Below, piece by piece: positions 13,223 to 37,073 of a DNA stretch of 48,820 bases. Position 1 is the first letter of the stretch; every line of letters begins with the position of its first letter. This DNA comes from Saitoella complicata NRRL Y-17804 (lineage: Eukaryota > Ascomycota > Saitoellomycetes > Saitoellales > Saitoellaceae): assembly GCF_001661265.1 (NCBI RefSeq), contig NW_017566993.1:689826-738645 (forward strand), in the 5' to 3' direction. Under the pieces are notes generated by a model, which had not been told where the DNA came from, did not search any database, and was given only the letters and a program-made list of their open reading frames with translations. The translations under genes and the position numbers were made by a program.

Positions 13223-14418
13223 TGATAGTCCTTTTTTTGGAATAAACTCATCTCAAATGCAGCGGAATCGAGCTGTGATGTATCTTCGATTGCCCACGAA
13301 GGCGGAGGCTGGATCGTAGTCGAGTTTGCGCAGAGCAACGCAATCCGCAGAAGATGTGATAGGAATACCGCCTCCTCCTGAATGTTAACTTGTGGTTTTT
13401 GTCCTTACTGAGGCATTTTCACATAACCATGGTGATCGTGTGCGAAAACACGTTGTTCCACAAAGGGAATGTCCTGCCACCTGTTATTATCTGACACAAA
13501 AAAGAGAGAAGGGTGATGTGACGATATTCCCTGTTGCAAGCGACGTGTCGGGAACGCGCGACAGGTTTTGGCACAGAAGAACGCTTGCCACACACACCGT
13601 ACTCGTGATCGTTCATATCGTTGCAATCTGGTTATGAGCACCGATGGTCATTGAAAAGCGGCCTTACGTGGGTTGAATGTTTGATCGAATGTCTCCATCG
13701 GTCGTAACTGTTGGGCTCCATCCTCCACTTGCAAAGTATTGAACGTTCCCACGCATCCTGAATGGTGCCGGCATTTGCAAACGTTCCCATTTGATGGCGA
13801 AGACGAGCAATGTGAGGGACAAGGGCGTGTACGATATGGATAGCATGGCGGAGGTAGTGAGAGAGAAGGCTCTGTACCAACAGAAGATATTTTTACACTT
13901 TGCACCGGTTCCTCCGTGAAGTCAGCTCGCAGATCTAAACTCGGTAATTTCTGTGAGTATTATCAGATATGCCCATGGCCGCCATAGACATCTGCAGCTG
14001 CGGATATCGATGTCTCGAAAAAACCGTACCTTCATGGATCCAGCTGTACGAACCGCCATCACTCATTCGAGCAACATCTCCATGGTTCGGGGTAATCCTC
14101 GATATCCGTCACACTCCCTCTAGATCTTCGAACCCGCACGCCTGTATGTCGATCTCGGAATGAACAGAAAGACAAAGTTGGGCAAGTCACAAGCATGGCC
14201 ATACAGTTACAAGGAACAGACAGAACTTCAGCCAAAATGATCCCCTTAATCGAGTACCTGATATATACTTCAAAAAAATCACAAACCCAACAACGATAAC
14301 GTTACCCCGCATCCCTCCCCCACAAAAATGGAAAATGAGTAAAACAACTCCCGAGTCCCATGAGACCAGCTCTCTATGTACCACCATAAACATCCCAGAA
14401 GTTCAACCCCATTTTGAT
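13223..14418. other. Gene-poor stretch with possible minus-strand coding remnants
   Basis: About 1.2 kb between the 5S gene and the sidA stop. On the minus strand, 13253-13380 reads GGGGIPITSSADCVALRKLD and on to RRYITARFRCI with a stop at 13253-13255, preceded by an intron-like acceptor (GTTAACATTCAG). Further upstream on that strand, 13640-13830 reads QMGTFANAGTIQDAWERSIL and KWRMEPNSYDRWRHSIKHST. These may be leftover exons of one decayed or unusually spliced gene. I cannot name a family. The rest is featureless. Confidence 0.3.
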
Positions 14419-15894
14419 TCAAGCGTTAAGAACACTCTCAACAACCTCCCACCCCCTAACCCCCAACACACTCAACAAAGAATCACTCAACCCATGCGTC
14501 CTCTCACACGTCCCCTGCAACCAAATCCTCGGTCCTTCCTTCCCATCTACCAGCTGCACACGATAATCACGAGAAATAACGATATCTTCCTCCTCGCTTA
14601 CCTCACCATCCGCGGACCCGGATCGGGTTGCGGCGGTACGGAGGAGGTGGGAGAGGGGCGCGAGGAGGGTGCGGTAGAGTGCGCGGTGGTATCCCGTACC
14701 CAAGAAAATGGCATCATACGTTTCTTGATACTCCTCCCCCGTCGCCGCATTCCTCATCTGTAGCGTAAATGACTCGTCCTCATTCGGTTTCACTGCCAGA
14801 ATTTCTCTGCGAGTCAAGATCTGCGCACGGGGACGAGTGCGTGAAGTGTCTGGGTGTAAGTTGTCCTGGATATACAAGTCCTCATACAACTCCTCCAATA
14901 ACTCATTCCTCACAACACCATAATTCGTCGCACGAAGGTCTTGACGGACGCCGTCTCTCTCCGTCTCAGACATATCAAAGAACACATCCGTGGATTCTGG
15001 GTTGAAGACTTCGTTGACGAAGGGGCTGTCGTCTGAGGGTTTCAAAGCGCGTGCACGGATGACGAGGTCGATTTCGGAGGAGGAGGGGAGGATGTGGGTG
15101 AGGTGCCTGAAGATCTCGGCGGATGATTGACCTCCGCCCAGGACGGCCACGCGGCGAAGGGTGGGGAGGGGGAGGGATGGGAGTGAGGTGAGGAAGGAGG
15201 AGGAGTGGATTAGGCGTGGATGCGGGGTGTATTTTGCGAACAATGTCGGGAACCTCGCTTGGCCTCCCGTACTGAGGATGAGATTGCGGGTGAGGTAGGT
15301 CTCGGTCTCGTTGTTCAGCACGTTCCTCGCCGTGACGCGCACGACCCTTCCACCCTCCAACTCCGTCGTCTCAACACCCACGACCTCGCGTGAGTACCTA
15401 ACAACCTCCCCAAACCTCCCCGCCGCCCAACGGAGGTAATCCTCATACTCCTCGCGTCTCGGATAAAAAGTCCCGAGATTGATGTAGTTCACAAGTCGTC
15501 CCTTACTCTTCAAGTAACACAGGAAAGAGAAAGAAGAGGTGGGATCGCGGAGGGTACACATATCCTTCAGGAACGAGATTTGCATACGGGAACCTGGGAT
15601 CAACATCCCCGGGTGCCAACGGAACTGTGCTTGTTTCTCCAGGAATAAGACCGAGGAGGCTGGAGCGGTTTCGGAGGAGGGAGAAGGGGGGGTAGAGGTT
15701 GCGTAACCGCTGTCTGCGAGGGAGCCGCGGTGGCCGGGGAAGCCTTTGGTGTAGGAGGAGAAGATGTGGGATGTTGCGGGGTGGTCATGGAGGGCTACGG
15801 CGATCGCCAAACCGGCTGGGCCGAAACCTGCGCAGAGGATGTCGTGGATGGTGCCGTTCATGGTTGTGCTGCCAATGTCCATGTCAGTCCTCAT
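14419..15894 (-). CDS. sidA: L-ornithine N5-monooxygenase (siderophore pathway first enzyme)
   Basis: FAD- and NADPH-dependent hydroxylase that converts L-ornithine to N5-hydroxyornithine, the committed step of hydroxamate siderophore synthesis; homologous to Aspergillus SidA and Ustilago Sid1. Single exon, 491 residues, normal length. FAD site DILCAGFGPAGLAIAVALHD near residue 20. Substrate/FAD region KQAQFRWHPGMLIPGSRMQ, SFLKDMCTLRDPTSSFSFL and LVNYINLGTFYPRREEYEDY. NADPH site RRVAVLGGGQSSAEIFRHL near residue 250. The C-terminal ATGY-type motif reads DAIFLGTGYHRAL. The most upstream ATG (MRTDMDIGSTTMNG) is used; later Mets at residues 5 and 12 are possible. It is transcribed divergently from the NRPS through a 0.93-kb promoter with three iron-GATA sites, which strongly suggests shared regulation. 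Confidence 0.96.
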   Translation of the reverse strand: MRTDMDIGSTTMNGTIHDILCAGFGPAGLAIAVALHDHPATSHIFSSYTKGFPGHRGSLADSGYATSTPPSPSSETAPASSVLFLEKQAQFRWHPGMLIPGSRMQISFLKDMCTLRDPTSSFSFLCYLKSKGRLVNYINLGTFYPRREEYEDYLRWAAGRFGEVVRYSREVVGVETTELEGGRVVRVTARNVLNNETETYLTRNLILSTGGQARFPTLFAKYTPHPRLIHSSSFLTSLPSLPLPTLRRVAVLGGGQSSAEIFRHLTHILPSSSEIDLVIRARALKPSDDSPFVNEVFNPESTDVFFDMSETERDGVRQDLRATNYGVVRNELLEELYEDLYIQDNLHPDTSRTRPRAQILTRREILAVKPNEDESFTLQMRNAATGEEYQETYDAIFLGTGYHRALYRTLLAPLSHLLRTAATRSGSADGEVSEEEDIVISRDYRVQLVDGKEGPRIWLQGTCERTHGLSDSLLSVLGVRGWEVVESVLNA

Positions 15895-16101: not shown

Positions 16102-16110
16102 ATCTGATAA
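16102..16110 (+). promoter_or_regulatory. Iron-GATA repressor site ATCTGATAA (1 of 3)
   Basis: Exact match to ATCWGATAA, the extended GATA element bound by fungal iron regulators (SreA, SRE, Urbs1, Fep1 family). It lies 208 bases upstream of the sidA ATG. Binding is inferred from the known consensus. Confidence 0.75.
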
Positions 16111-16449: not shown

Positions 16450-16458
16450 ATCAGATAA
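16450..16458 (+). promoter_or_regulatory. Iron-GATA repressor site ATCAGATAA (2 of 3)
   Basis: Exact ATCWGATAA match (W = A) near the middle of the shared promoter, between sidA (minus) and the NRPS (plus). Confidence 0.75.
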
Positions 16459-16694: not shown

Positions 16695-16703
16695 TTATCA
16701 GAT
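16695..16703 (-). promoter_or_regulatory. Iron-GATA repressor site ATCTGATAA (3 of 3)
   Basis: Exact match on the minus strand (TTATCAGAT on plus), 124 bases before the NRPS ATG. A near match, ATCAGATAT, is on the minus strand around 16641-16649. Confidence 0.75.
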
Positions 16704-16826: not shown

Positions 16827-19800
16827 ATGCTCTACACAACAATCCTACCCACCCTCACCACTTCCACCACCATCAATGCCTCCAACACCGTCTCTCCCAC
16901 CCGTCTTCCTTCCGGAACATCTCAGGCGTCCGTTTTGAATGCCATCACCTCTTTTATGAGGGGTGTATGCGATTTAGACGCGGACGAGGATGTCGTGTTT
17001 GCGGTCGAGGACGACGAGGGTGAGATGAAGGTTTGTGTTGGTGGGGTAGTTGGAGAGGGTGAGGTCGATGGGGAGGGGTTACTTGTTTCTTTCTCCCGCG
17101 TTCATGGACGAAGTGATGTCCCGCATTTAGTCATTCATGGTGGGGAGATGAGGATGTATAATCATCTCTCCGCCGACTACATCCTCGAATCCATTGTCAA
17201 GCTCATCAAGGGAGAGACCATGAGGGAGGCGATATTGAATTCTGAGCCGGAGGTGTTGGATAATGACCAAGGGCTTCACCACATGTTCCTTGACTCTGCA
17301 CGCGCGTTTCCGGCTCGTGTCGCGATTCGGTATCTCGACTCTCTCGGTTCGGACCAAGAGACCTGGACGTACGCCGAACTCGCCGCACTCTCCTCTCGTG
17401 TCGCGAATCGTCTTCCACTCTCCACTTTTGCGGGAACGACTGGAGTCGTGGCGGTGTATCTACCGCATCCGCATCATCCGCTCTTTTATGCCTCTATCTT
17501 GGGTGTACAGCGTCGTGGGCACGCTTACTGTCCCATCATCCCCGGCGTGACGCCCCTGGAGCGCGTCAAGTTCTTGTTAGGCGACATGTCCGCCACCGCA
17601 GTCCTCACCACCTCCACCCTCAAACCCGAGATCGAATCAATCTTCGCGGGCCAAGTCTTCGTTGTCGACGACCTTCTCTCCACGAAGGATGTGGTTGAGG
17701 AGGTCGTGGAGGGTGAGGGGGAGAAAGTCGCGAAGGGGCAGACTGGGTATATTTTGTATACGTCTGGATCGACTGGGATGCCGAAGGGAGTACAGTTGTC
17801 GCACCGAAACGCTGTTAATGCGATTCGTGCTCATTATCCTTACTTCCGTTCCTCCTCCTCGTCCACCCCGCAGCGGTTTTTGCAGTTTGCGAGTGTCACG
17901 TTTGATGTTTCTATTTTGGAGATTTATTTACCGCTCAGTCTGGGGTGGGAACTTTGTACTGCGCCTTCAGACGTCCTGCACTCGGATCTGGCGGGGACGA
18001 TCGCGGGGTTGGGGATCGAGCATATGGAGTTGACGCCGACTGTTGCGTCACTTGTTAGTGCGGGGGAGTGTCCCTCCATCAAGAGTTTGATGACGATTGG
18101 GGAGATGTTGACCCCCCGTGTCGTCGATAACTGGTGTCCTCCCTCGAAGGATGGGGAGGAGAAGAGGGTAGTGTTGCACAACGCGTACGGACCAACCGAG
18201 ACCGCGATTCATTGTTCCTGCTCGTGGGATTTCGGAGTAGGGAGACGCTGTGCTGATATCGGTATTCCACTCTCCACATGTGCCATGATGGTCATGGATT
18301 TCCGCACGCCTACACTTCTACCCGTTGGGTATGTAGGCGAACTAGTCGTTGGTGGACCTCAGGTCTCCGAACTTGGGTACCTAAATCGGGAGTCATTGAA
18401 CAAAGAGGTGTTTTTCGAGTGGAACGGTATGCCTGTTTACCGTACCGGTGATAAAGGCCGGATATTGCCTGGGGGGCGGATGGAGTGTTTGGGACGTGTG
18501 GGTGGGGGACAAGTCAAGGTCCGGGGTGGACAGCGTGTTGAATTGGGCGAGGTCTCGTTTGCGGTTCAACGCTCGTTGACGCATGCCATGGCGGAGGTTA
18601 TCTCGTTTGTGGCGGGTGAGGGGGAGCTCGTCACGTTCGTTGTTGGGAAACAACAGACGCAGAGTGAGGAAGATGTGAGGAGGGGTGCGGGGAGGTGGGT
18701 GCCGGGGTATATGGTACCGGGTGTTGTGCGGTGGGTTGAAGCTGTGCCTAAGACTGCCTCTGGGAAGACTGATATGAAGGCTGTGAAGGCGATGTATGCG
18801 GGTATGCCTCGTTCGGGCCCCTCCGATGCTGAGCACGAGCGAGATGATGACAGCGAGTGGACACCGAGGGAGGAGATGGTTAGGGATGCGATTGTGGAGG
18901 TTGCCGCGGGAGTTGAGGTAAGTCAGGTAAGGAAGGGGAGTGAGCTGAGGGTCCTTGGTGTCGATTCGATTGGAGTTATTAAGCTTATTGCTGCGTTAAG
19001 GAAAAAGGGGGTTGAGGGGTTAGCTGTGTCGGATGTTGTCCGTGCCGGAACCGTTGCAGATATTGCTGCGCTTATCAAAGACGAGGGTAAAGCGGAACAT
19101 GTTGAGAATGTTGATGCGCAGAGGTGGGTGGGGTTGACGGGGTTGGTTGAGGGTGCGGAGAGTGTTGTGCCTGCTACCCCGATTCAGGAGGCGATGATTG
19201 CCGAGACGATCAAGGATGCTGAAGGCAGGAGGTATTACAACTGGGTCTTGCTTGAGATTGCTGAGGGCGTCGAGGCTTCGATTGTTGAGCAGGCTTGGAA
19301 GAGCTTGGTTGAGGCGAATGAGGCGCTCAGGACTGGGTTTGTCGTGAGCCCTGAGGATGTAAAGGAGTCGGAGTTCTTGCAGGTTGTGTACCCTGCTTCG
19401 CATCCGGTTGACTTTTCTGTTGAGGATGGCGAGGTCGAGGAAGTTGTCAACAAGCACAAGGAGGTTACGTTGACGATTGAGTCGATGCATCAGCCACCGC
19501 TTTCTGCGAAGTTGGTCAATGGGAAGTGGTTGTCTGTCATGATTTACCACGGCTTGTTTGATGGATGGGCGATGGAGTCGATTGTGCGTGATCTTGCGGC
19601 GTACATCTCTGACCCCACCGCCATCATCTCTCGTCCTCAGTTTAGGAAGGTGACGGAGTATGCCAAGCGCGAACGTGATTCAACACCCGCTCGCACCTAC
19701 TGGACTGAACTCCTTAAGGACGTGCAACCTGTTCAGATGCCGAACCTTACCGGCCGTAGGTTCGTCCCGAGGAAGATTGCGCACGAGAAGTTGTCGCTCA

Positions 19801-22800
19801 AGAGTTCCGTCGAGGATATTGAGGCGTTCGCACGGAGTCGGGGTATCACGCCACAGGTTTTGTTACAGACTGCTTGGGCGTGGTTGTTGGGGATGTATAC
19901 TGAGAGTAAGGATGTCGTGTTCGGCACCGTCGTGTCTGGACGCACCATCCCCGTCGCGGGCGTCGAGGATGTCATTGGTGTTTGTATCAACACGCTTCCT
20001 ACTCGCGTGGGTCTCGAGGCTACAAAGACGATTGCCGAAGTCTTCCGTTTGTTGCAGAAGGACGGTACGGATGTTCTTGAGCATGTTGATCTTCCCTTGC
20101 GGGCTGTGAAGGCTTTGGCTGGGGTGGAGGCTGCTGAGACGTTGTTTGATACCATCCTTGTTTACCAGAAGACGCTGCATACTGGTGATGAGCAAAGCGC
20201 CGTTGTCAAGCAGGTCGATGGCGAGGACAGGCTCGAGTACACTGTTCTTGTCGAGGCTGAGGCTACTGGCAATGAACTCGAGTTGAGGGTGACGTATGAG
20301 CAGGCCAAGCTGCCTGCTGAACAGTGCAAGATCATGCTCGCTCAGCTTGATTCCCTCGTTGATGGGATGATGAGGATGGAGCCCACGTCTACGCTGGATG
20401 AGTTGGTTTCAATGTTGGGTCAGGAGCTGGTGTCTGTGGTCCCCGCTGAACCTGTCTTCGAGTCTATGAAGGATGAGCCGAAAACCATGCACGAGATGTT
20501 TGAGCTCACTGCGAAGAACTTCCCCGAGAAGGTCGCGATTGAGGTCGCTACGGACTTTGTCGATGGAACCCCGAAGTCGTCTGCGTTGACGTATGAGCAA
20601 CTCAATGCCCGTGCGAATCAGGTTGCGAACTACTTGGTTAGTGAAGGTTCTCGCGTGGAAGAGATTGTTGCTATCAACATGGATCGAAGCATCCACATGT
20701 ACGTTGCTATCCTAGCTGTTCTCAAGGCTGGAGGCGCCTACATGCCCATCATTCCTCAAGCACCAAAGGACAGAGTTGAGCACATGGTCTCTGCCACCGA
20801 ATGTCGTTTCTGTCTTACCACATCATCCGACGACAAAGCCGTAGCCTCGCACCTGCCAGCGTCAGTGAAGATTATCGAAGTGGACGTTATGGATCTCTCT
20901 GCTCAAAGCCAAGGGAATATGACGCGAGGCGTGGATCCCTCGGCTCTGGCCTACGTGTTCTTCACGTCGGGTACCACAGGCACTCCCAAGGGTGTATGCG
21001 TGGAGCATGGCAATGTTGTTTACAACCTTGCTGCGCTCACACGCATATACCCATACGGACCCGAATCGAGGTTCCTACAGTTTTCTACTTTCCATTTCGA
21101 TGTTTCCGTTTTCGAGATCTTCTTTGCTTGGAAGACCGGCATGGTCCTTTGTACGGCCCGCCAAGATCTCCTGCTCCGCGATCTCGAAGCAGCCTTCCGC
21201 GCGTTACGCGCTACGCATTCCAACCTCACTCCGACCGCAGCAGGTCTCTTGCGCAGAGATAATGTTCCATCTCTCGAAGTCCTCATCTGCGTCGGAGAAG
21301 AGATCACCGACAAAATCGTGAGTGAGTGGCATGGTCGACGTCTTTTCAACGGGTACGGTCCCACCGAGGCGACGAATATTTGTCACCTCTATGACCAGGT
21401 CCCGGCAGACGCGTCTGGCGGCAACATCGGGCGTGTCGTCCCGATGACTTCCGCGTATATCTTGTCTAACGACTTGAAGCCAGTCCCCCGCGGTGCTGTC
21501 GGTGAACTCTGCGTTGGTGGTCCACAGGTGACTCGCGGTTACCTCAAGATGCCCGAGTTGACCGCGCAGAAGTTCTTCGAGCTCGAAGGTGCAGGACGTG
21601 TTTACAAAACCGGAGACTTCGCTCGCCTTCTTCCTGACGGGTCCTTCTACTTCCTCGGCCGACGTGATGGTCAGGTAAAGATCCGTGGTTTCCGTATCGA
21701 ACTCGGTGAAATCAGTGCGTCATTGTCCAAGTCAAAGAAGGTTAACGAGGCGATCACCATCGTCGTTGGATCAACCAAGCAATCGAAACTTGTTTCCTTC
21801 GTTGTGCCGACCGCGTCCATGTCGCAGAAGTGTGCAGTTGTCTCGGCTTCGACTGGATACGATGTCCCGTCTTTCGTCAAGGAGCTCTTTGATGCCGCAC
21901 AACAGGCTCTGCCGTTTTACATGGTTCCCTCTGCTGTCGTCCTCGTTAGCCACCTGCCGCTTGGTAGCACCAACAAGGTTGACAAGGCACAGCTTCTGAA
22001 GGTCTATTCCGAGCTCGACAGCTCCGCTCGTGACATCTTCACCGCTGGCTCTGCCGCCGAAGACAATGACGGTGGCGATTGGTCTGATGTCGAGATCTCT
22101 TTGCGAGATGCTCTTGCGAATGTTTCTGGAGTTGACGTTGTTGACATCGGCCGATCAACATCCATTTACAAGCTCGGGTTGGATTCCATTTCTGCCATCA
22201 GGTTATCTCAGCACTTGAGAAAAGTCGGCTTCCATCAGCTTGATGTCTCGCAAATCATGCGTAACCCCACGATCCGTCAGCTTGCTGGAGTTGTTTCAAG
22301 GACTGTGAGGACCGAGTCTTCTGGTACAGACCGCTTCACTCGCGGTGAAGAAGTGATGCGAGCTTTTGCCGACAGACATATGGACCAAATCCTCCAGTCG
22401 TTGGAACTATCCCAGGCAGAGATCGAGGACATCCTGATATGTACCCCATTGCAAGAAGGTATGCTGGGAGACTCTTCACGCTTCCAGGGCTCGTACTACA
22501 ACCACGCAGTCTATGAGGTCACCGCAGACGTGGACCTGAAGCGCCTTGAGGCAGCCTGGCGGGTGGTCGTGGAAAGGCATCCGATGATGCGCACATGCTT
22601 CTGTATCACTGAAGACCCGCATTATCCGTTCGCTCAAGTGGTTCTCAAAAAGCACCAACTGCCATGGTCTGTAACTGAAATATCTGGGGATAACCTTCTT
22701 ACTGCCGTCGATGAACACATTGCTTGCATTGGTGCTGCCCTTGACGTTCGTCGCCCGCCGTACCACTTTGGTGTTCTTCGAGCTAGCGACAAAACGGTCA

Positions 22801-25800
22801 TTGTTCACTCAGTTCACCACGCAATCTATGACGGATGGGCGAACGGACTCGTCGACGATGACGTCAAACAGTTGTATGCTGGCGGTAACTTGCGGGAGAG
22901 ACCGGCTTTTAGGCGAGTTCTGGAGTATATTGCGTCCACAGACGAGACCGAATCTATCCGGTTCTGGAAGCAAAACCTCGAGGGATATGAGCCCACCGGT
23001 TTTCCCGACCTTTCTGGTCAATCCAGATTGGCGAAGGGCAGCGATGAAAGTGTTATTCTCTCAAAATCTTCTTCGCTTTCACGTGGCGAGCTTGAAGCCG
23101 GATGCCAAGCACTTTCAACTACCTTGCTTGCCGTGGTCCAATCTGCATGGACACGCATTCTAACTTCTTATCTAGATTCCACGGATGTTGTCTTTGGCAA
23201 TGTCGTGAGCGGCAGAACGCTTCCCATCGACGATGTTCAAGAGATTGCCGGCCCTTGCTTCAACACTATCCCTGTTCGTGCCACATTGTCCAACACCACT
23301 ACTAACCGTGAACTTGTGCAGCTCCTCCAGAACATCAATGCCGAATCGCTTCCCCACCAGCACACCTCTCTTCGCAAGATCATCAAATCCTGGGATGAAT
23401 CTAGCGGGAAAAAGCTCTTTGACACTCTGATCATCTTCCAAAATGCCACCGATCCCCAACGTGACTCTGTGAACTTGTGGAAACTTATTGATGATAGGGC
23501 GCAGATGGATGTGAGTGTTCTAGGTTCTAGCATAGCGAGTGAGCGGCAGATGCTTATTCTCTGGTTGAGTAGTTTATCGCTGCAATTGAATTTATGCCTT
23601 CAAACGAATCCCTTGAAATCCAATTGTCCACCTGGAAGAGTTACATGCCGCAAGAACAGGCCAATGTTCTCCTCGAGCAACTCGATTGTGCCATGATGGA
23701 CGTTCTCAAGCATCCTGATTCGCAGGCCGCAGATTTTTCCGCTGCTCTGCCCGACAAGTTGCTGTCGATCTCGAACTCCGATGCTGCTGTAATCCCCGTG
23801 AAGGAAAGCACTTTCCTGCACACAAACCTCGAACGTTATGCTCGAGAAGTGCCGGATCGCGTTGCATTGGAGTTCTGGGATGGCAAAGAGTTGCGCGAGT
23901 GGACCTACGCTCAGCTTAACGCGGAAGCCAACAAGGTTGCGAACTGTTTGCTCGAGCTCGGAGTGGAGCGCGACGAGGCCGTGCCATTGTGCATGGAGAA
24001 GTCGCCTCAGCTCTACATCTGCATTCTAGGTATTCTCAAGGCAGGTGCTGCATTCACGCCGTTGGACACATCCGCGCCGATAGATCGGAAAGTGTTTATG
24101 ATCACGGAGCTGGAAGCGCGGTTCTCGATCACAATGTCGGACAAGGAATCTAGCTTGTTGAGGACCAACCTACCGAACCTTAACGTCATCCAATTGCCGC
24201 ATGCGGCTATCACTCAGCAGAGCACCGAGAACCCCTCAGTGCCAGACTTGAAACCATCAAACCTTGCGTACATCCTCTATACCTCAGGTAGTACTGGAAG
24301 ACCCAAGGCAGTCGCCGTTGAGATCCGCAATGCTGTCCAAGCGGTCCTTGCATCGAGGAACTTCTTTTGGTGGAACCACACTTCCAAGTTCTTGCAGTTT
24401 GCGGCCCCTACCTTCGATATGTCCATCTACGACTGCATGATCTCTTGGAATTTCGGCATTCGGTTGTGTTCTGCGACACGCAAGTTGCTCTTGAGTGATT
24501 TGCACGGAGTCATTCAGCGCATGAATGTTACCCACTTGGATCTTACTCCTACAATCGCATCCAGCCTTATCCGCTCTGAGGTGCCGACGGTGGAGATGCT
24601 CTTCTGTATTGGAGAAGCGCTGCCTCAGGATCTCGTCGAGCAGTGGTCTCCGATTTGTATCAACGCCTACGGACCAACCGAGTGTGCCATGGCTTGTACG
24701 CATCAGATCAGCATGCCCCACATGAAGTCCAACAACATTGGAAAGCCATTCGAGAGTACCAGTCTCTACATCCTCACGAAGGATGCGCAGCATATCGTAC
24801 CCGTCCATGGAGTTGGCGAACTCTGCATTGGCGGCTTTCAGGTTGCTCGCGGCTATCACGCGAACCCAGTGATGACTGAGGATCGTTTCATCACCAGGAA
24901 AGGCGTGGAAGGCAGGCTGTATCGTACTGGAGATCTTGTTAGAGTTCTTGCGAACGGCGAATTCGAATTCTTAGGTCGTGCGGATGACCAGGTCAAGATT
25001 CGGTACGTTGATACATAACTTCTTCTACTGCTGAATATAGCTAACTCTTAGGTAGTGGTCTCCGAGTGGAGCTCGGCGAAATCAACGCCGTCGCAAGGGA
25101 TGCCGATTCGTCTATTGTGGATGCTATCACATTGGTTTTGAAGCATCCCAAGATGTTGCAGGATCAGCTTGTGACTTTCCTCGCCTTGCAACCGCGAGAC
25201 GACACTATTCATGATTGTGCAGTTGTTACGGATATCGCGTTGCGCCTTCAGCTGACTGAAAAGTGCCTGACTGAAGCAAAGCGGAGATTGCCTGCCTATA
25301 TGATTCCTGGTATTGTCCTGCTTGTGGACAGAATACCTCTCAGCGCTGCCGGTAAGGTCAATCGCCGTCTTCTCACATCTGTTTTCACGGACATGGAGAT
25401 GGCAGACTTCCAGACCGAAACCAAAGACGAAGACGAAGTCTGGGGAAGACTCGACGTTGTCATTCGAGAGGCGCTGGCGCAAATCGCTTTGGTACCTCTT
25501 CAAGATGTTCGTAAGTCTTCAACTATCTTCCAACTCGGACTCGACAGTATCAGTGCCGTGCAAGTAGCTGCCAGACTATCGAGGCAGCTCCATCGTGAAG
25601 TCAGTGTTTTGGATGTTCTTCAGAACACCTCTATCCGTGAGCTCAGTGCTTTCTTACAGAACGCCTCTGCCTCCTCAGAGGCCACCGTCGATGACACCGA
25701 AGGCTTCAATGCCGGCATCTCAGCTTTCCGCGGCCAAGTGGAGAGCGACCTGGATGCCATTCCTCGGGGACTGCAAGCCATTCTACCCTGCACGCCTTTG

Positions 25801-28800
25801 CAAGAAGGCATGTTGGCACAATTCATCCGCTCTAACGGAAAAGAATACTTCAATTCAGTCCTTTTCGAGCTTGAAGCTAATATCGATATCGGCCGCCTGC
25901 GTTCAGCTTGGAATTCTTGCTTCGAAAATTTCGATATTTTACGCACCGGTTTCTGTGCCATCAACGGAACCAGACATTCGTACGCCCAACTTGTCTATGA
26001 AAGAGCAGCTTTGGAGCTCCCATGGAGCAAACACGATACGGATGAATTGAACCGCCTTGATGCGTTCGTAGAACAGAGGAGGTCAGACTTGGCCCAGAAG
26101 GCCATTGACGCACTTGAAGTTCCGCCCATCAACTTGGACCTTATCAGCGGTTCAGATAAGTCTACGTATCTCCTGTTTTCGGCTCACCACGCCCTGTTCG
26201 ATGCCTGGTCTCTGGGATTGTTATTGGAAACGGTTTACGCACATTATCACGGATTTGCTACACCGGAACGTTCCAAATCGGCATCCGTTCTCCGGAGCAT
26301 TCTGTCTGGAGAGTACGATGAAGCTTGGTCCGCTACGGCAAAGACCTTCTGGAAATCCAAGCTGGAAGGGATTTCTCCCAGTATCTTCCCCAACCTTACC
26401 AGCAAGCGTCTTACTACCACCGGATCCTTTAGATGCATCAAAACTTCCAAAGTGTCGTTTGCGAAAATGGAAGCTGCGTGCAAATCGCTCAATGTGCAGG
26501 TGCAAACACTTGGTCAAGCAGCTTGGGCCAAGCTTCTATCGGCTTACTCTGGCGAGACCCATGTTATCTTTGGTCAAGTACTCAGCGGAAGAGCTATGAT
26601 CAAAGGCGGCGAAAACGCCGTCTTTCCTTGTCTCACCACAGTGCCTTGCGCATTCGGTCTAAACGGAAGCAATAAGGATTTCGTCCAATTAGTACAACAG
26701 TACAACTCGGACTCATTGCGATACCAACACACATCGCTCACGGCCATCAGTCAATGGCTCGGCTTCACTGAGGGTGAAACACTTTTCGACACAATCTTCT
26801 TGTATCAGAAAGCCCCCGCAGGGAGTGTCAATGTAGGGGAAAATGAATTGTGGAGAGAACGCGAGCACATGTCTTCTGTCGACGTAAGTAAGGGCGCAAT
26901 AGCTTGAAGTATTCGCTAACATGTCCTGTAGTATGCCGTTTCGCTTGAGATGGAGCCCATGGTGGACGGATCTGTTAGTCTTGTCGTTCATGCTAAAGAC
27001 AGCTTGATGTCTGCCCAGCAAGGAGAACTCCTTCTTGAACAATTTGACGCTCTTCTTGAGGGCATAATTGACCATCCAGAGGCACAGGCGGATGAGATGA
27101 CAGTGGCGGACGATAACTTGTTGTCTATCTCACCTCCTCAGCATGAGATCCTTGACGCGCCGGTTCAATACCTTCATCACTTTGTGGAGATGCATGCAAA
27201 GTCGATGCCAGGAAAAGTCGCCTTTGAATTTGCTACTGGGATCAATGGATCCGAACCCATCAGCCTGAAATGGACGTACGCAGAGCTCAATGAGGAAGGA
27301 AACCGCATTGCGCATTATCTGCGCTCTACCGGCGTCAAACCGAACACCACTGTTCCAGTTTGCTTCGACAAAAGCCCGATCGCCTTTTTCTCCATTCTCG
27401 GTGTACTCAAAGCGGGCTGCTCCTTCCTTGCTTTGGATCCTGGAGCTCCTATGGACCGCAGGGCGTTCATTGTCAAGGACATCTCCGCAATTGCTGTCCT
27501 GACCATCGAGCGTTATGCTGATGCATTCCGGTCAAACACCGAGAATGTGAACATCATCGCGGTGGACGTCAATACCAAAATTTCTCTTCAACCTAGCGAT
27601 AACCTCGATATCCCTGAGCTTGCGCCAGAGTCTCTAGCGTACATTCTGTATACGTCCGGAAGTACTGGTACGCCCAAGGGTTGTGAGATTTCTCATGACA
27701 ACGCCGTACAAGCCATGCAAGCGTTCTCTATACAGTTTGCAGGGCACTGGGATTCGGAGTCTAAATTCCTGTGCTTCGCATCACTACACTTCGACGTCAG
27801 TATCTTGGAGCAATATTGGACCTGGAGTGTCGGTATTGCCATGGTGGCAGCGGATCGAGATCTTCTGTTCCAAGATCTGCCTCTTGCGTTGCGTGCGTTG
27901 CGCATTACGCATCTTGATTTGACTCCCAGTCTTGCCGTAACTTTGCAGCCGGCGGATGTGCCGTTACTTCGGGTGTTTATTACTGGCGGTGAACTCCTTC
28001 GCCGTGAGGTCTTGGACTCGTGGGGCAAAACAGGAAAGATCTTCAATGCTTACGGCCCAACAGAAGTCACCATTGGCTGCACGATGCTGTGTTCTGTTCC
28101 CGAAGATGCTCGCCCTTCAAACATCGGCAAGCAGTTCGTCAACTGCGGATCCTTTGTCGTGAAGGCTGGCAAGGGCTTCACACCTGTCTTGCGGGGTGCT
28201 GTTGGTGAACTTTGCATGTCCGGAAAACTTGTTGGCAGAGGATATGTCAAGAGACCCGAACTCACTGCGGAGCGCTTCCTCGAGGTTCCTGAGCACAACG
28301 TGAGGGTCTACAGGACGGGTGATCTTGTTCGACTGCTTGACGACGGATCATTTGATTTCATTGGCCGAGCAGACGAGCAAGTGAAGTTGCGCGGTCAGCG
28401 CCTCGAGCTGGGTGAGATCAATGCTACACTCAAGCAGGCAGGGAATGAAGCCGCTGTTGTTGATGCAGCGACGTTGGTTCTGAGGCACCCAAGCCAACAG
28501 AAGGATCAGCTTGTCTCCTTCATCGTCCCCGCCTCCACAGCGACAGCCGTTGCCGCCTCACCGGAATTGATCGAGCGCTTCGACCTGGCTCCACTACTGC
28601 GTCAAGCGTGCAAGCGTCGACTCCCCCGGTATATGATCCCAACGCATATTCTTCCGGTCTCTAAATTACCCCTTTCCCGAACCAATAAGATTGATGGCAA
28701 ATTCCTTGCTGCGCTGTTCCACCAGTGCTCGTTGGATCTCCTCCAGCAATATTCAGGAGCGACGAATGAAGATCGTGTCAAGGCATGGACGGAAACCGGA

Positions 28801-31800
28801 CGTCGCATCCAGCAATTACTCGCGCGCATCACCAAAGTTCCTTTGGATGCAATTCACCCGTCGACTTCTATCTTTGAACTTGGGTTGGACTCAATCTCAG
28901 CAGTCAATTTTGCGAAGACGCTGAAAAAGGAAGACATTGGCACCGTGAGTGTTTCTCAGATTATGCAGAATCCATGCATCATGGACATGGCCGATCTCTT
29001 AGAAACACCATCCCATGATGACAGCGTCGATATCTTGTCTACGGCGAAGGCGTCAATCCAGTCGTTTTCGATGCGTTTCAGACCGGTCGTACTGCAGCAA
29101 CTTAAGTGCCGCGATGCAGACGTTGAGAGCATCTACCCGTGCACACCGTTGCAAGAAGGTATCATCGCCGAAGCTCGTCAATCGGACAATGGACTTTACT
29201 TCAATCATTTCATTCTTCGCTTGGAAGGTCTGGTGGACACGAACAAGTTGCACAAAGCCCTCGAGGTGTTAATACAATCCAATGCCATGCTACGTACATG
29301 CTTCTGCGACACGGAGGAAGGATTCGCCCAAGTTTGTCTCAGGTGGCAGAACTCAAACGTTAAGCTGTGGAAAGAGGTCATATTGAAGGATGAGAGCGTG
29401 AACGAAGTCGCGGAAGGACTTGCTAAGCAGTTCGCTCGCGACAATAAGTCTCTTGAACGTCCTGCCTTTGGTATTTACCTCGTAGGCAAGGATGGTCAGA
29501 AGTGCCTATGCCTTGTGCTCTTTCATGCTTTGTATGACGGTTGGAGTTTACCGTTGTTACTTGACGACCTGCAGCGTCTCTACCATGGCATCCAACTCCC
29601 TCAGCGCCCGCCTTTTGAGGGCGTGGTCCCACACATCTTGGCAGCAGACGAAGCCAAGGCCAAGGACCACTGGAGAAAGGCATTGAATGGCATGAGATGC
29701 ATGTCGTTCCCTGTTCAACACTCCGACTCTAGCGATACAGACGCCGGTCGGTCTGACTTCGCTGTTGAAGTGATCTCGGACTGTTCAGTTCAAGATGTTG
29801 AAATTGCTGCAAAATCAAAACTTTCCAGCACCCCTCAAGCCTTACTACAGGCCGCTTGTTCTCTGCTTCTTACAGGATATCTAGGCAAAGACGTCAGCTA
29901 TGGCGTTGTGGTGTCTGGTCGCAATATCATGGTCGAGGGCATTGAGAATGTCGTCGGACCAGTTTTCAACACCATTCCGTTTGCCATGCACATTTCGGAG
30001 GACGCGTCAGCGAAAGAAATTGTTAAATACGTTCAGACGGCATCTGCTGCTGCAAGCCCTTTCCACCACACACCACTAAGATTGATTCGAAAGTGGCTCG
30101 GAGTGCCTCGTGAATTTCCTCTTTTTGACTTCCTCTTTGTGTATCAAAAGACTCCGAAGAACGAAGAGGACAATGGTGCGCAGCTTTGGGATATCATCGA
30201 AACCGATGCAGCCCAAGATTTCTCGGCATCTCTCGAGATCGAACAGACAGCCCAAGGCACGTTCGTTCTACGCTTGGCCGGAAAGGGCTCTGTCCTGAGC
30301 CCGGATATCGGCCGTACCATGTTGCAGACCTATGATGCCATCCTGTCGGCAATCATCTCTGCTCCGAATTCTGTGCCTGCCACATCCTTTGCCGAATTGA
30401 AAGAAGAACATCCAATCTTCAGTCCTCGCTTGCAAGATATCAAAACAACGAGCGACAAGAAGAGCACTTCCGCATTGAATCAGTCTGAGGAAGCTCAGAG
30501 TATTCGTCATTGTATCGCCGAAGCCGCAGGCCTCGACGTTAAACAAGTGGATGACACAACCTCGATTTTCCACCTTGGCTTGGATAGTATCGAAGCTATC
30601 AGATTGTCTGCAAAACTGAGATTGCAAAACATCTTGCTGTCAGTCAGTGAGCTCATGAAGTACTCCACTGTTCAAGATATGCTACGTCTCCTTAACGAGA
30701 AGCAGACCACTGAACTAGGAAGCCCAAAGAGTCAAGGTCTATCGAAGTCTGCATTCGATGCTTTGTGCAACAAGCTGCGCCAACAACTTGCAAAGGAGGG
30801 CGTTCTGCCAGCGGATGTCAGAGACGTGTACCCTTGCACACCTCTGCAAGAGGGTATGATCGCCGAGTCGTCCGGACGGACAACATACCTCAACCACGCT
30901 GTTCTTGAATTGGATGACGGAGTTGATGCAGAGAAGCTCAAACAGGCGTGGAAGAATGTCCTTATCAAGGAGGCTATCTTCAGCACTAGTTTCCGTCCGA
31001 TGAATGTAGACGGGGTCTCATATGCTCAAGTCGTACACGAAACTGCGAATACCTGGAGCGAGCACACTGTGCAGAGCCTGGCTGATCTGCCGGAATATTG
31101 CAACAAGCACTTGGAACGCACCAGAGAAGTCCTCAATCCTCTCGAGCGTCCTCCGGTGTCTGTCGCGCTTTTGAACGCGCCGGACAAGCAGTGGATCGTC
31201 CTTTGTCTTCACCATGCGCTCTATGACGGATGGAGTTTGTCATTGCTCTTTGAAACAGTTTTGCGCCAGTATCATGAAGCCGATGAGGGAAGCAACGGGC
31301 CCTCGTTCAAGGATGTCGTTAATCAGATTGTTTCAGCGGACCAAAGCAAAGCCGAGCAATACTGGTCTCGTGTGTTGGATGACTGTACTATTGTGAGCTT
31401 CCCCGACCTTTCGAGATCGACAGCGGCGGAAAACCCCGTCGGTTCACACTGGTGCGAGGTGAACTCAGCCATGACCGCCTCCAACGTGGAGGAGGCATGC
31501 AAATACCATGGGATCACTTTGCAGACCATTGGCCAAGCAGCCTGGGCCGTCATTCTTTCCCTTTACACTGGCGAGAGCGACGTTTTATTTGGAGCGGTTC
31601 TTTCTGGCCGAAACGTCATGGAAGGTGCTGAGGGGGTTATGGGCCCTACGATGAACACTGTACCTGTCCGTGTGGATGTACGAGACTGTTCTAACCTTGA
31701 GCTCTTGCGAAAGGTTCATGATTCAAGTGTTGCAACGTTTGACTATCAGCATACGCCTCTAAGGGACGTGCAACGTCTTGCACGAACCAATGGACGTCGT

Positions 31801-34800
31801 CTTTTCGACACTATTTTCTTGTACCAGAAATCGGCATCTCAAGGGTATACCACGCACACCCAACCCTTGTGGACATCGGTGGACGAGGAGTCGTCAACGG
31901 AGTATTCGGTCGCCGTTGAAATGGAAACCAAGGAAGGTTGTATCATTTGGCGGGCTACCAGTAAGAATGCTCTGATGACTCCAGATCAAACCCGTTTGAT
32001 GTTGCTTCAGCTGGACGCAGTTGTCAAGAACCTTGTCAACAAAAACGCTTGCAACGCTGCGGTTATTGGTCGTGGTGAGAGTACGATCTTGGCAATCGAC
32101 AACGCATCCCCCGCGCCTCTCGCAACCGGCGGAATCTCTCTTTTGCATGAGTTTTTCGAGAAGAATGCTGCGCAAAAACCCGAGCATCCTGCTTTAGAAT
32201 TCTACACCTGGCTCGGTCACGAAGTGCATACAACTGCTTTCACGTACGAGAAGCTCAATGCACTTGCAAACCAAGTTGCCCGCCTTCTTGTCAACAAGGG
32301 TGTACAGCCAGGAGATGTGGTCCCCATTTCTATCCATAAGGACCCATTCTTGTACATAGGGATGCTTGGTATTCTGAAGGCTGGAGGGGCTTTGCTTTTC
32401 GTGGACCCCGATATGCCTCAAGATAGGAAATCTCACATGGTTTCTGAAGTCGGGGCAAAGGTATTGTTAGTCACTAGCGAGACTGCAAATCAAGCCTTGT
32501 CTACCGTTGAGTTGATTGAGCTGGACACACAGCAAGAACAGGTGTCTCAGCTCGATACGTCGAACTTGAACCTAGCTATCGAGGCGCAGAGAATTGCGTA
32601 TATGATTTACACTTCCGGCACTACCGGGACGCCTAAAGGTGTTACAATCACTCACACCAATGCAGTGCAGGCCATTCTTGCTTTCCACGAGCTGATTCCG
32701 TCGAAGTCAGATTCTCGATTCTTGCAATTCGCCAGTGCTGCTTTCGATGTCATCCACTTTGAATGCCACTACAGCTGGTCGCTTGGGATTACTTTGTGCT
32801 CAGCATCAAAGAATGACATTCTCAGTGATCTTGAGCGTGCTCTCAACACTATGAGGATCACTCACGTTGATCTGACTCCATCTGTCTCGGCTTTGGTGAA
32901 AAGAGAAAACGTACCAACAGTCGAGGTACTCGTCAGCGGAGGTGAAGCGCTTACACAGAAGGTTTTGGAGGAGTGGACTGACGGTGGTTGTCTGTACAAC
33001 GCATACGGGCCTTCCGAGGTTAGTTACTTTTCAAAACGATGATCTTATCTTGCTAATATCTCGTATAGGTAACTATTGGCTGCACCATGCTAACTCAAGT
33101 CCCAAGGGACGCGAAGCCCATGAACATTGGTAAAGTTTGGCCAAACACATCTGCGTATGTCCTTTCCAGCCACCTTGAAGTATTGCCTCGCGGTGCGATC
33201 GGTGAACTCTGCGTTGGTAGTGTCCAAGTGGTAAGTGTTTTAATTCTCGTCCCTTCTACACGATGTTTGATATTGACCTTTCTTAGGCACCCGGCTATTT
33301 CAAACGTCCAGACCTCACCAAGGAGAGGTTCATCAACCTCTTTGGCGAGCGCCTTTACCGTACCGGTGACCAAGTCCGCATGCTTGCCGACGGTTCCATC
33401 GAGTTCTGCGGCAGGAATGATGATCAGGTCAAGTTGAACGGTATCCGCATTGAACTCGGCGAGATCGCGACGGTCATGGCCAAGTCACACGAAGATATCA
33501 ACGACGTGGTTTGCCTGGTACTCAGACATCGCAAGAGCACGCGTGACCAACTCGTTGCCTTTGTCTCTTGCACGTCGCAAGCAGTATCCCCTGATGAAGC
33601 CGAAGTCCTTGACATCAAGACGTCGGCCGTGAGCGACGTTGTGGAGACGGCGTTAAAGGCGGCTCGACGGAAATTACCTACCTGGATGATTCCTAGCCAT
33701 GTTGTTGCTCTTAGCAAGTTCCCTCGCGGTAGGACGAACAAGACTGATCGCAAGGCCCTTGCCGAGATCTTCTCCTCTATGGATTTGTCTGCAATTGATG
33801 AGGAGAACGTGGTCGAGGATTGGCAGAGCCAGGAGCTCATCCTCAGGGATGTCCTCGCTGAGATCTCCACGATTCCTGTAGCGTCCATTCGTCGCACTTC
33901 GACTATCTTCACGCTGGGTTTGGACTCTATCAGTGCCATTCGCATCTCCGGTTTACTTCGTCAGCGATCCATCAACTTGACTGTTGCCGAGATTCTGCAG
34001 AATCCTAGCATCGAGCGTATCTCCGAGCACCTTGCTAGTCGCCGAGCCGAGCAACCGGCCGGTGAAGCCACTGACTTGATAACCCGCCTCACTGCCAAGC
34101 TGGGCAATGACTACATTAACCTCTTGAGCGCCAAGATTGGATTGTCCAAGGATAACGTCGAGAATGTTGCACCATGCACGCCTTCTCAGACCTACACTCT
34201 GTCCGCCTGGCAAAACTCCAACCAGAAACTCTTCATGCCATCTTTCCCTTACATCACTAAGGAGAAGTTGGACGGAGCGCGCTTGCGCAAGGCTTTCGAG
34301 GATCTTGTTAAGAGGCACGATGTTTTGAGGACCGTCTTTGCCAGCACGAGCGACGCTGATTTCCCTCTGCTTCATTTCGTGCTTGAGTCCTATCTACCCG
34401 AGTTCGTGGAAGAGGAGGTTGGTGATGTCGAGGATGTTGCTGGTGCTGTGTACGACCTCGTCGTGAAGGAGTCCGCTGTCGCTGCCGATTTGAGGACGCC
34501 TCCGATCAGGATGCGCTGCGTTCAGTTCAATGACAAGACGGCTATCATCTTGACGATTCACCACGCGTTATATGATGGTTGGAGTTTGCCGGCGCTTGTT
34601 AAGGAGCTCGCTGACCTCTACTCCGGTTCCGTTGTCGCTGCACCTTCGGTTGACTTTGCGAAGTTCACCAAATCCGTCTATGCCGTATCCGAGACTTCAC
34701 TGGAGAAGTACTGGTCGAAAGCCTTGTCCGCCTACAAGCCTACCCACGCCCCGGTCTTACACGCCAGCACCTCCGCCTCCCGCACCAGCGTCTACAAGCC

Positions 34801-35467
34801 CCGTGCAATCCTCAACGCCAAGGCACTCCAAGACGCATACCGTCAGAAGGGCCTAACCCTCCAATCAGTCTTCCTCGCCGCCTTCGGCCGCATCCTCGCT
34901 CAACGCACTCAAAGTAATACTGCAACCTTCGGTATGTACGTCTCCGGGCGTACCCCCGAATTCGCATCTTTGATGGGACCTACTGTCAACATCATCCCTC
35001 TCTGTGTTCAGAAGAATGAGGATCTGGTGAAGAGTGCAGAGGAGGTCCAGATGGAGTTGGCGCGTGGATCAGAGAAACAGCAAGTTAGTCTTGCGCAGAT
35101 TGCGAAGTGGATTGGCAGGGAGGGCGAGGCATTGGTTAATGCTTACGTCAACTACCTTCGTTTCGACGACGATATCTCTACTTCTTCTGATGAGAATTTG
35201 TTCAGTGAGGTGGAGATCGGCAATAGAATGTCTTCCGTTATGCGCGACATCGAGACGAACGCCAAGGCGAAGGGCGAGGTCCGTACGTTGATTGATAGCA
35301 ACCCTGTCAAGTCTACGGTCAAGGTCGACTTGGACGTGGAGATTGCGGTTCGTGGAGATGGTGTCGATGTCGGTATCTTTTGTGGTGGGGAGGTTATGAA
35401 TGAGGAGGAAGTCAATATCATGCTCGGTGAGCTTTGTGGTGAGGTTGAGAAGGCTTTGAAGAAGTAG
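16827..35467 (+). CDS. Ferrichrome-type siderophore nonribosomal peptide synthetase, A-T-C-A-T-C-A-T-C-A-T-C-T-C-A-T-C
   Basis: Single multimodular NRPS of 6,123 residues. Six exons: 16827-23510, 23573-25002, 25056-26883, 26932-33018, 33069-33230, 33287-35467. The five introns (62, 53, 48, 50, 56 bp) each restore a conserved motif, and the spliced length divides by three. Approximate residues: A1 150-650, T1 Ser 714, C1 774-1200, A2 1218-1720, T2 1780, C2 1869-2290, A3 2309-2810, T3 2863, C3 2947-3380, A4 3395-3900, T4 3961, C4 4048-4480, T5 4524, C5 4613-5030, A5 5052-5550, T6 5602, C6 5690-6123. All six T domains have LGxDS and all five A domains keep the A10 Lys. C motifs: YHGLFDGW, HHAIYDGW, HHALFDAW, FHALYDGW, HHALYDGW, HHALYDGW. 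No thioesterase; the terminal C domain would cyclise and release, as in ferrichrome synthetases. Six carrier sites predict a hexapeptide hydroxamate. Residues 30-130 look like the tail of a lost C domain. The exact product is inferred. Confidence 0.96.
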
Positions 35468-35658: not shown

Positions 35659-36951
35659 CTACAATCCAACCAGAACCCCGACAACAACCCCCACAACCCC
35701 CAAAGACATCGTCCCAGCCAATCCCAATTCTCTCCCACTCCTCCCTCTCCCACCAACCTCCCCCCAACTCGTACTCGTCGAACTTCCGTTCCTAGTCCCA
35801 ACCAACGTACTCATCGTCTGCTTATCGTCCAATTAGTATCACTATTACTAAGAGCGAAAGATACTCCCGAGCACACTCTCGACAGCCCCCAAAACTTGAC
35901 TCACCGTAACAACAGCCGCCGCAACACTACTAATCGTACTCTCTCCCGCCTCTGTCGCGATCTGGTTCCACCAACTCAGGGCGCCAGAGGCTGTGTTTTC
36001 GCTTTGTGCCTCTCCACCGAGGAGACCGTTGGTAGGAGCGGTGTAGTTGACGCCGTTGAGCTCTGCGACCCAGGAGAATACTGAACCGTTTGTCGGGATG
36101 GAGTAGTAGTCGAGCAAGACGAAGTTTGGAGGGCGAGAGTAAAGCGCATAACATCCCTCGTAGTTCGCCTGCAACGAAGCGTACCCGTTTGTTGTATCGA
36201 GTGCCGCTGTATCGGGAATCAACACCGAAGAGATAATCTCCGTATCCAAATAATGATTAACCAGATAAAGCTTCCCGTCACTTGTCCCGCCACTCGGGCG
36301 ATCAAGGTCACACGGGAAAGTGGCATCCGTCGAATCATATGCCGTCTCAAACACGAAGTCCCACTCGGGCAGGATGTAGTCAACGATCGAAGCATCCGCG
36401 TTTGAGTCCATGAAGGTGATGACGCGAGTATTGTTCCCGATGAGGGAGGAGAGTGTAGGGAGGTCGGAAAGGGTTGTTAGGGAGGTGGGAGGGGAGTAGG
36501 TGTATGCGGAGAGGTTTGTTGATTCGTAGACTGTTGCGTAGAGGGAGGGGGAGAGGTTGTCGGAGTTGACCCAGAGGATTGTGATCACTTCGTCTGGGTT
36601 TGCTTCGAGCCAGGCAACGACTTCGGTGAGGTACTCCTCAATCGTACCACCATCGAGGAGATCACAACTTGTATGACAAAGACTGATCCCGACACCATCA
36701 CTACCCGTCTCATTGTTCTGATGGGCCTGGTTCTGAAGAAGACGGATTCCGTCGTTGAGTTGCGTGGTAACGTTTACCAACTGATTCGAAGCGACAGAGT
36801 TGGGTACTGCAGCGTATGAGTTGTGAGCACCAAGGTATGTGATATTGGAGTACGAGCGAGAGCAGAGGGATGCATGGCCATTGCAGAGCTGCTGAGCCGT
36901 AACCACTGAGGCAAGAGCAAGCGCAGCAATCGTCTGGACGAATGAATGCAT
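35659..36951 (-). CDS. Secreted, probably GPI-anchored PLC-like phosphodiesterase
   Basis: TIM-barrel PLC-like phosphodiesterase family protein. The signal peptide is MHSFVQTIAALALASVVTAQ. The domain shows CNGHASLCSRSYSNITYLGA followed by HNSYA (the first PLCX-type His), LNDGIRLLQNQAH, LCHTSCDLLDGGTIEEYL, PDEVITILWVNSDN and RVITFMDSNAD. The first exon read alone would stop at 35848. A canonical GTGAGT donor at 35904, a TACTAAT branch site and a CAG acceptor define an 87-bp phase-0 intron (35818-35904). Exon two, 35659-35817, adds a Ser/Thr/Gly stretch and a hydrophobic end (SLGVVGVVVGVLVGL), a typical GPI-attachment tail. Total 401 residues. Its substrate is unknown; wall or membrane glycolipids are a guess. 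It lies tail-to-tail with the NRPS but shows no iron-GATA site. Confidence 0.85.
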
Positions 36952-36959
36952 GTTTGTAA

Positions 36960-37073
36960 GGAATGTATGCTGCTTGTATGTTCCTAGTTATAACAGAAGT
37001 GAGAGAAAGACAGATCAATATACGTTTGCGTCACCAGAACCAGCAGGTAACGCCTTCAAGGGGAATGTATGCT
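36960..37073 (-). promoter_or_regulatory. Two copies of the AGCATACATTCC motif upstream of the PLC-like gene
   Basis: On the gene's strand, AGCATACATTCC occurs at 36971-36960 (nine bases before the ATG) and AGCATACATTCCC at 37073-37061. Same orientation relative to the gene as the triplet in front of sidA. Confidence 0.5.

Follow-up and report, generated by a model that had tools for sequence, protein, structure and literature searches.

An intact adenylation domain in the last module of a predicted ferrichrome-family synthetase of Saitoella complicata, probably kept from a six-module gene

The described ferrichrome synthetases are, in our own summary of the types, multimodular proteins of A (adenylation), T (carrier) and C (condensation) domains, with A first and C last. 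The six types in the available text of PMC2644324 (Bushley et al.), named Types I-VI after Bushley in PMC10192304 (Jenner et al.), usually end in a repeat of TC units without an A domain (U. maydis Sid2 ends in one TC), and the text of PMC6737921 and PMC6563098 gives further synthetases ending in A-less modules. The family is derived in PMC2644324 from a hexamodular ancestor that arose by duplication of module 1, then of modules 1-2 and then of modules 3-4. Both lineages are said there to have since lost their A domains from modules 5 and 6, except for one of Sid2, which is assigned to the penultimate module (5). Because of these losses, the hexamodular idea has domain trees and the hexapeptide product as its basis. 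A nonribosomal peptide synthetase (NRPS) gene of Saitoella complicata NRRL Y-17804, found in a stretch of 48,820 nucleotides (RefSeq assembly GCF_001661265.1, contig NW_017566993.1, positions 689,826 to 738,645 of the forward strand; hereafter the window), ends in a complete ATC module and raises the question of whether its last A domain (A6) was kept from such an ancestor or acquired later. We favour, at a probability of roughly two in three, the reading that this gene, the sole multimodular NRPS with C domains in the genome, is a ferrichrome-family, NPS2-like synthetase in a near-complete hexamodular form, in which the last module would have kept its A domain from the old six-module gene while module 5 would have lost its own.

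The gene and its domains are laid out as follows (all domain limits are approximate; pocket matches are explained below).

16827-35467, + strand: predicted ferrichrome-family NRPS gene, ATG at 16827, stop at 35467; six exons, 6123 amino acids (aa)
16827-23510, 23573-25002, 25056-26883, 26932-33018, 33069-33230, 33287-35467, + strand: NRPS exons, open frames joined
17262-18821, + strand: A1, pocket nearest Sib1 AMP1 (Gly, 13/17); irregular A8 motif
18849-20411, + strand: T1-C1, from motifs and PF00668
20472-22031, + strand: A2, pocket nearest ChNPS2 AMP2 (Ser, weak: 10/17, five others at 9)
22080-23728, + strand: T2-C2, with intron 23511-23572 inside C2
23786-25416, + strand: A3, pocket nearest ChNPS2 AMP3 (Gly, 10/17); intron 25003-25055
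25435-27099, + strand: T3-C3, intron 26884-26931
27157-28734, + strand: A4, pocket nearest FgNPS2 AMP3 (AHO, that is N5-acyl-N5-hydroxyornithine, 16/17); groups with SidN A3 (3ITE)
28783-30384, + strand: T4-C4, from motifs and PF00668
30478-32064, + strand: T5-C5, the sole module without an A domain
32125-33775, + strand: A6, intact last-module adenylation domain; introns 33019-33068 and 33231-33286
33818-35464, + strand: T6-C6, terminal condensation domain, presumed cyclising

The five introns (62, 53, 48, 50 and 56 nt in gene order) are all GT-AG, and A3 and A6 align without a break over their internal introns; intron 23511-23572 was picked by eye among enumerated alternatives for its donor and the restored end of C2. 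The motifs place the domains in the order ATC-ATC-ATC-ATC-TC-ATC, which makes five A, six T and six C domains. The adenylation motifs A3, A5, A7 and A10 each occur five times; A8 is regular in four domains and irregular in domain A1, and there are six copies each of the T motif LGxDS and the C motif HxxxD(G/A)W. Exon 4 (26932-33018) is one unbroken frame that begins in the last part of C3, takes in A4-T4-C4-T5-C5 and covers most of A6; since it spans both, A6 stands in the same frame as C5 and does not come from a neighbouring gene, and a split into two genes is ruled out. A single gene with this domain order is thereby confirmed, as the sequence-only reading of the locus had proposed. The protein continues in C6 to its C-terminus, leaving no room for a thioesterase. 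When the whole genome (14,122,262 bases, 34 contigs) was scanned in six frames with introns unspliced (9 candidates scored), the six C-domain matches to PF00668 at E ≤ 0.001 all lay in this gene. No A domain was present at the C4-T5 junction, where 62 aa separate the end anchor of C4 from the first helix of T5, whereas the four C-A junctions have 48-52 aa between C and A. An excision scar in this linker was considered, and the linker is too short for proof.

Instead of the usual C-terminal A-less unit or repeat, the protein has a single internal TC and places an ATC last; the Type V order of four ATC modules followed by TC-TC is here four ATC modules, TC and ATC. None of Types I-VI has a module-6 A domain in the text and legends of PMC2644324 and PMC10192304, and the open-licence literature on this architecture or on siderophores of Saitoella and Taphrinomycotina, as far as its available text goes, gave no description of ATC-ATC-ATC-ATC-TC-ATC. 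The architecture is new within the known ferrichrome-synthetase family.

The TIGR01733 score of the last-module A domain (373.6 bits) lies above those of A4 (366.6) and A3 (361.9) and below that of A2 (398.2), while A1 (273.7) falls under the cut-off of 317.4, and its A3, A5, A7 and A10 motifs are kept without a frame break. By these measures A6 is an intact adenylation domain, and the weakest A domain is A1, given its score and irregular A8 motif. As a separate observation, the block at 18001-20000 in module 1 shows a strong skew of G over C on the coding strand (0.287) and encodes a protein rich in V, E and G, against values of no more than about 0.08 to either side of zero in the other 2-kb blocks over the gene; A1 also scores lowest of the A domains with TIGR01733.

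The 17 pocket residues of each A domain were compared with those of the 22 fungal domains in Table 2 of PMC2644324. The pocket of A6 shares 13/17 residues with FgNPS2 AMP3 (AHO), the best non-AHO domain reaching 10, and 12/17 with A4 against 7/17 with A2. For the control, the third A domain of SidN, AHO domains were likewise top-ranked (10/17). A1 to A4 each match best their corresponding module in Sib1, ChNPS2 or FgNPS2, all of the NPS2 lineage, and A1 and A4 also share 12/17 and 15/17 residues with ChNPS2 AMP1 and AMP4. The late modules therefore carry AHO-like pockets in A4 and A6, and A4 groups with a known hydroxamate-activating domain (A4 with SidN A3, support 97.1/95). Two traits of the NPS2 lineage, in our own reading of Table 2, are present as well, namely six C domains and T at position 280 of the AHO-domain pocket. 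Judged by these sequence features, the protein is a ferrichrome-family siderophore synthetase, closest by pocket residues to the NPS2 lineage; this bears out the ferrichrome-type identity first suggested for it.

On this basis, modules 1 and 3 would each load Gly and module 2 Ser (a weak call), A4 would load AHO on T4 and, across modules, on T5, and A6 would load AHO on its own T6, after which the terminal C6 may cyclise a hexapeptide of the ferricrocin/ferrichrome type. Loading of T5, which has no A domain of its own, is explicable because in SidC, according to the text of PMC10192304, an AHO A domain can load the carriers of downstream A-less modules. A Gly-Ser-Gly-AHO-AHO-AHO order would correspond to ferricrocin, a product we infer from the pockets.

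How old A6 is can be read from its divergence. It is 42.8% identical to A2, 42.3% to A4, 40.5% to A3 and 33.4% to A1. Values for the remaining six A pairs range over 34.2-41.1%, so that its distance to its paralogues is about equal to their distances among themselves. SidN A3 (PDB 3ITE) is 36.5% identical to A4, 33.7% to A6, 33.1% to A1, 32.4% to A2 and 30.4% to A3. Comparison in 60-residue windows showed no sign of recent gene conversion involving A6, none of the windows standing out relative to the other pairs. At such identities A6 is no recent copy.

The ancestry of the domain was then approached through trees. The published model predicts that modules 1, 3 and 5 are alike and that modules 2, 4 and 6 are alike (PMC2644324, available text). 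The sequence-only reading had rightly referred to such a model and to the A-less TC ends of known synthetases, with Sid2 and its one TC as noted above. It had proposed to test whether A6 groups with an ancestral sixth-module lineage, for which no reference exists, since modules 5 and 6 have lost theirs in the published scenario, and it took a position sister to A4 as the sign of a recent duplication, which it would not be by itself, since the model derives modules 5-6 from 3-4. The telling question is whether A6 lies outside or inside the pair of A4 and SidN A3. Without outgroups, the tree gave A4 with SidN A3 (97.1/95), A2 with A6 (89/79) and a split of A1 and A3 from the rest (79/69), and the best of all 105 six-taxon topologies was (A1,A3)|((A2,A6),(A4,SidN_A3)). 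In that run, uniting A4 and A6 to the exclusion of SidN A3 was 22.8 log-likelihood (lnL) units worse; in the approximately unbiased (AU) test the best of the 15 such trees had p 0.001, and the largest p among them was 0.042. Seven further six-domain runs used other models, columns or half alignments (five full-length, two halves): the split of A1 and A3 was best in all eight exhaustive runs, and in the five further full-length runs A4 with A6 was 15.3-24.4 lnL worse (largest AU p 0.045, 0.061, 0.070, 0.049 and 0.035), which makes for rejection at 5% in 4/6 full-length runs. Outgroups were drawn from relatives on genome contigs (best 80 of 481, all 80 titled bacterial). With 10 of them the marginally best tree united A2, A4, A6 and SidN A3, and A6 stood outside A4 and SidN A3 in the best trees with 24 outgroups, with 10 and with none. 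When A4 and A6 were forced together with 10 outgroups, their tips measured 0.72 and 0.63 substitutions per site on a joining branch of almost zero; because both branches stay long, a copy of A4 into A6 would still be old. We take A6 to be old no matter which domain is its sister.

The best A-domain trees, A1/A3 versus A2/A4/A6/SidN A3, follow the published odd/even pattern, and the concatenated A, T and C domains likewise gave M1,M3,M5|M2,M4,M6 (M, module) as the best tree, with M2 and M6 paired. A6 thus probably belongs to the even class. The C domains by themselves conflicted: with 10 bacterial outgroups C3 paired with C5 (78.7/85) and C6 stood apart from C1-C5, and without outgroups C2 paired with C6 (69.5/69) and C4 with C5 (38.8/53), and these trees were not used as support for the ancestry.

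Several results weigh against retention of A6 as we read it. In identity A6 is nearer to A2 than to A4 by only half a percent, and its A8 motif has N in place of the R of the other four A domains. Without outgroups, the largest p for A4 with A6 exceeded 0.05 in 2/6 full-length runs (0.061, 0.070), and the two half-alignment runs put this pairing only 9.5 and 10.7 lnL behind (largest p 0.257 and 0.071), the C-terminal half placing A6 as sister to A4 and SidN A3 instead of A2. With 10 bacterial outgroups all six compared trees stayed in the AU set, including A4 with A6 (9.5 lnL worse, p 0.178), and with 24 A6 was weakly paired with A3 (84.1/64). At the level of modules, joining M4 and M5 costs only 0.6 lnL in the full concatenation, T and C alone prefer M2 with M6 and M4 with M5 (odd/even 2.2 lnL worse, p 0.54), and M6 pairs with M2 and not with M4 as the published order predicts, M4 with M6 being 6.1 lnL worse (p 0.36), a departure that does not exclude the predicted pair. 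Finally, the only fungal reference A domain in the trees is SidN A3 (3ITE), the one fungal siderophore A domain among the PDB matches listed; scans of viral contigs for other fungal synthetases gave one locus in all (24% identity, E 9e-28), and no NPS2 sequence was found in the viral contigs, among the PDB matches listed or among the best 80 of 481 relatives on genome contigs.

The origin of A6 might accordingly be told in two other ways. Long before the present species arose, recombination with a module-2-like domain or a whole such module may have given an A domain back to an ancestor ending in TC-TC, and we regard this ancient recapture as unlikely, though still to be reckoned with. For A6, T6 and C6 alike, module 2 is the nearest, the pairings of M2 with M6, A2 with A6 and C2 with C6 reported above point the same way, and the described architectures, in the available text, lack a module-6 A domain. 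Yet a module-2 affinity shared by T6 and C6 fits descent of the whole module better than insertion of a lone A domain, the A6 pocket is closer to that of A4 than to that of A2, and the depth of A6 equals that of the other module duplications. That A4 was duplicated into the last module within this lineage is, to us, very improbable: both domains are of the AHO type with 12/17 pocket residues in common, and the pairing survives the bacterial outgroups and 2/6 full-length runs without them, but the two are just 42.3% identical, uniting them costs 15-24 lnL when the six domains are aligned at full length, A4 pairs instead with SidN A3, and the branches remain long even when the two are forced together. 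Of the two origins that the sequence-only reading had left side by side, a near-ancestral state or a regained A domain, the first gains from A6 not being a recent duplicate and from its place among the even modules in the best trees, while a regain is only partly countered.

Two further explanations concern function. A6 could be a decaying, inactive relic, with the AHO on all three carriers supplied by A4, a role that A3 has in SidC, where two downstream carriers are cross-loaded (PMC10192304, available text); the R to N change in its A8 motif and the degenerate A domain described for Sib1 (PMC2644324, available text) would agree with this. A score above the curated cut-off and above those of A4 and A3, together with intact A3, A5, A7 and A10 motifs in an unbroken frame, speaks otherwise, and we hold a relic to be improbable. 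Somewhat less probable again is a related cyclic hexapeptide with other residues, as made in the Sid1/AS2488059 pathway. The pocket matches of A2 and A3 are weak (10/17 each), the authors of the reference table themselves warn that residue codes fail for ferrichrome synthetases (PMC2644324, available text), and Sid1 has six A domains according to PMC10192304; on the other side, A1-A4 each match best the corresponding NPS2-lineage module, and the ornithine hydroxylase and acetyltransferase genes described below share GATA-type sites.

If the favoured reading of a retained A6 holds, the gene may be a surviving near-ancestral form of the ferrichrome-synthetase family, whose old, intact A6 supplies the missing domain and makes the order of duplications testable. 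We put it only slightly above an even chance that the gene keeps the ancestral module-6 A domain lost by the known lineages, that the odd/even ancestry is direct sequence evidence of tandem module-pair duplication, and that the enzyme is a largely collinear ferricrocin synthetase with one cross-module loading. A dedicated A6 next to cross-loading by A4 would offer a natural comparison for how fungal NRPSs drop and reuse A domains.

Among known synthetases (characters from the available text of the papers cited), NPS2 of Cochliobolus heterostrophus (Type V, ATC-ATC-ATC-ATC-TC-TC) shares four N-terminal ATC modules and six C domains with the Saitoella gene, and its AMP2 and AMP3 are the best pocket matches of A2 and A3, but it lacks the module-6 A domain that the Saitoella gene has (PMC2644324). 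Sib1 of Schizosaccharomyces pombe (Type III) also has six C domains and the AMP1 nearest to the A1 pocket (13/17), and differs in an internal TC after the first ATC, a degenerate second A domain and A-less last modules (PMC2644324). The third A domain of SidN from Epichloe, which activates AMHO, a large hydroxamate amino acid, is the best single-domain match of A4 among the solved structures listed (298.9 bits, 36.5% identity), whereas the partial sidN clone ends ATC-TC-TC, unlike the TC-ATC found here (PMC3642064). Sid2 (Type I) likewise has a second AHO A domain in a module whose A domain others lost, but lacks one N-terminal module and has a single terminal TC, while the extra AHO domain of the Saitoella gene sits in module 6 (PMC2644324). 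Sid1 of the AS2488059 pathway, with six A domains, also has dedicated A domains for its AHO residues, and differs in its evolutionary origin according to PMC10192304.

The neighbourhood of the gene was analyzed for signs of iron metabolism, and these features lie upstream of the NRPS.

14419-15894, - strand: L-ornithine N5-monooxygenase (SidA/Sib2-like), PF13434, E 9.1e-103; 491 aa; divergent from the NRPS
16102-16110, + strand: iron-GATA-type site ATCTGATAA, shared promoter, consensus match
16450-16458, + strand: iron-GATA-type site ATCAGATAA, shared promoter, consensus match
16695-16703, - strand: iron-GATA-type site ATCTGATAA, shared promoter, consensus match

The monooxygenase is by far the best such match genome-wide (323.4 bits vs 40 for the next locus). 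Saitoella complicata, an early-diverging ascomycete yeast, and S. pombe belong to the same subphylum, and in S. pombe an ornithine monooxygenase gene presumably neighbours that of Sib1. The pattern ATCWGATAA, which we take from SreA/Fep1 work to be the iron-GATA consensus, occurs four times in the window against 0.58 expected (0/100 shuffles reached four), and three of the four sites lie inside the 932-bp promoter common to the monooxygenase and the NRPS, where 0.012 are expected from the genome-wide count (Poisson about 3e-7). The fourth, ATCTGATAA at 13960-13968, stands between the monooxygenase gene and an MFS-family transporter frame beyond it (11689-12969, + strand; MFS_1, 145.5 bits). 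Genome-wide there are 180 sites, compared with 32 for the reversed control pattern. Two GATA-type sites also lie 163-192 bp upstream of the first ATG of the single genome match to the PF13523 acetyltransferase family, presumably the type that transfers acyl groups to hydroxyornithine. Four further multi-site clusters, taken from the 100 of 180 sites listed, adjoin an ABC transporter, a ferric reductase, an FTR1 iron permease with a multicopper oxidase, and an MFS transporter; the other four of the nine frames scanned at clusters encode a DNA polymerase alpha subunit, a carnosine N-methyltransferase and two proteins with no family assignment. The arrangement supports an iron-regulated siderophore pathway, and the ATCWGATAA clusters would mark a candidate iron regulon.

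The window ends, as does the contig (738,645 bases), in a perfect (AGGGTT)n array of 19.8 copies at 48702-48820, and because this terminal array is a telomere repeat, the siderophore locus lies ~13 kb from a chromosome end. Adjoining the NRPS, a frame at 35848-36987 (- strand) resembles secreted PLC-like phosphodiesterases by eye, through an LGAHNSYA motif that we take as their mark, and had no Pfam match above the cut-off. Closer to the telomere, the frames at 38948-40135 (+ strand) and 41250-41621 (- strand) share the motif ALRK(V/I)(L/M)P(F/Y)(N/S)GRIQ (11/23 identical), the part at 39014-40135 having no Pfam match. A tandem array of about 15 copies of the 13-base unit TTACGGTCTTTCG, with higher-order periods of 40/53 bases, occupies 42848-43046 and is possibly a subtelomeric satellite, and a PAP2-family frame (46890-48398, - strand) lies near the telomere array.

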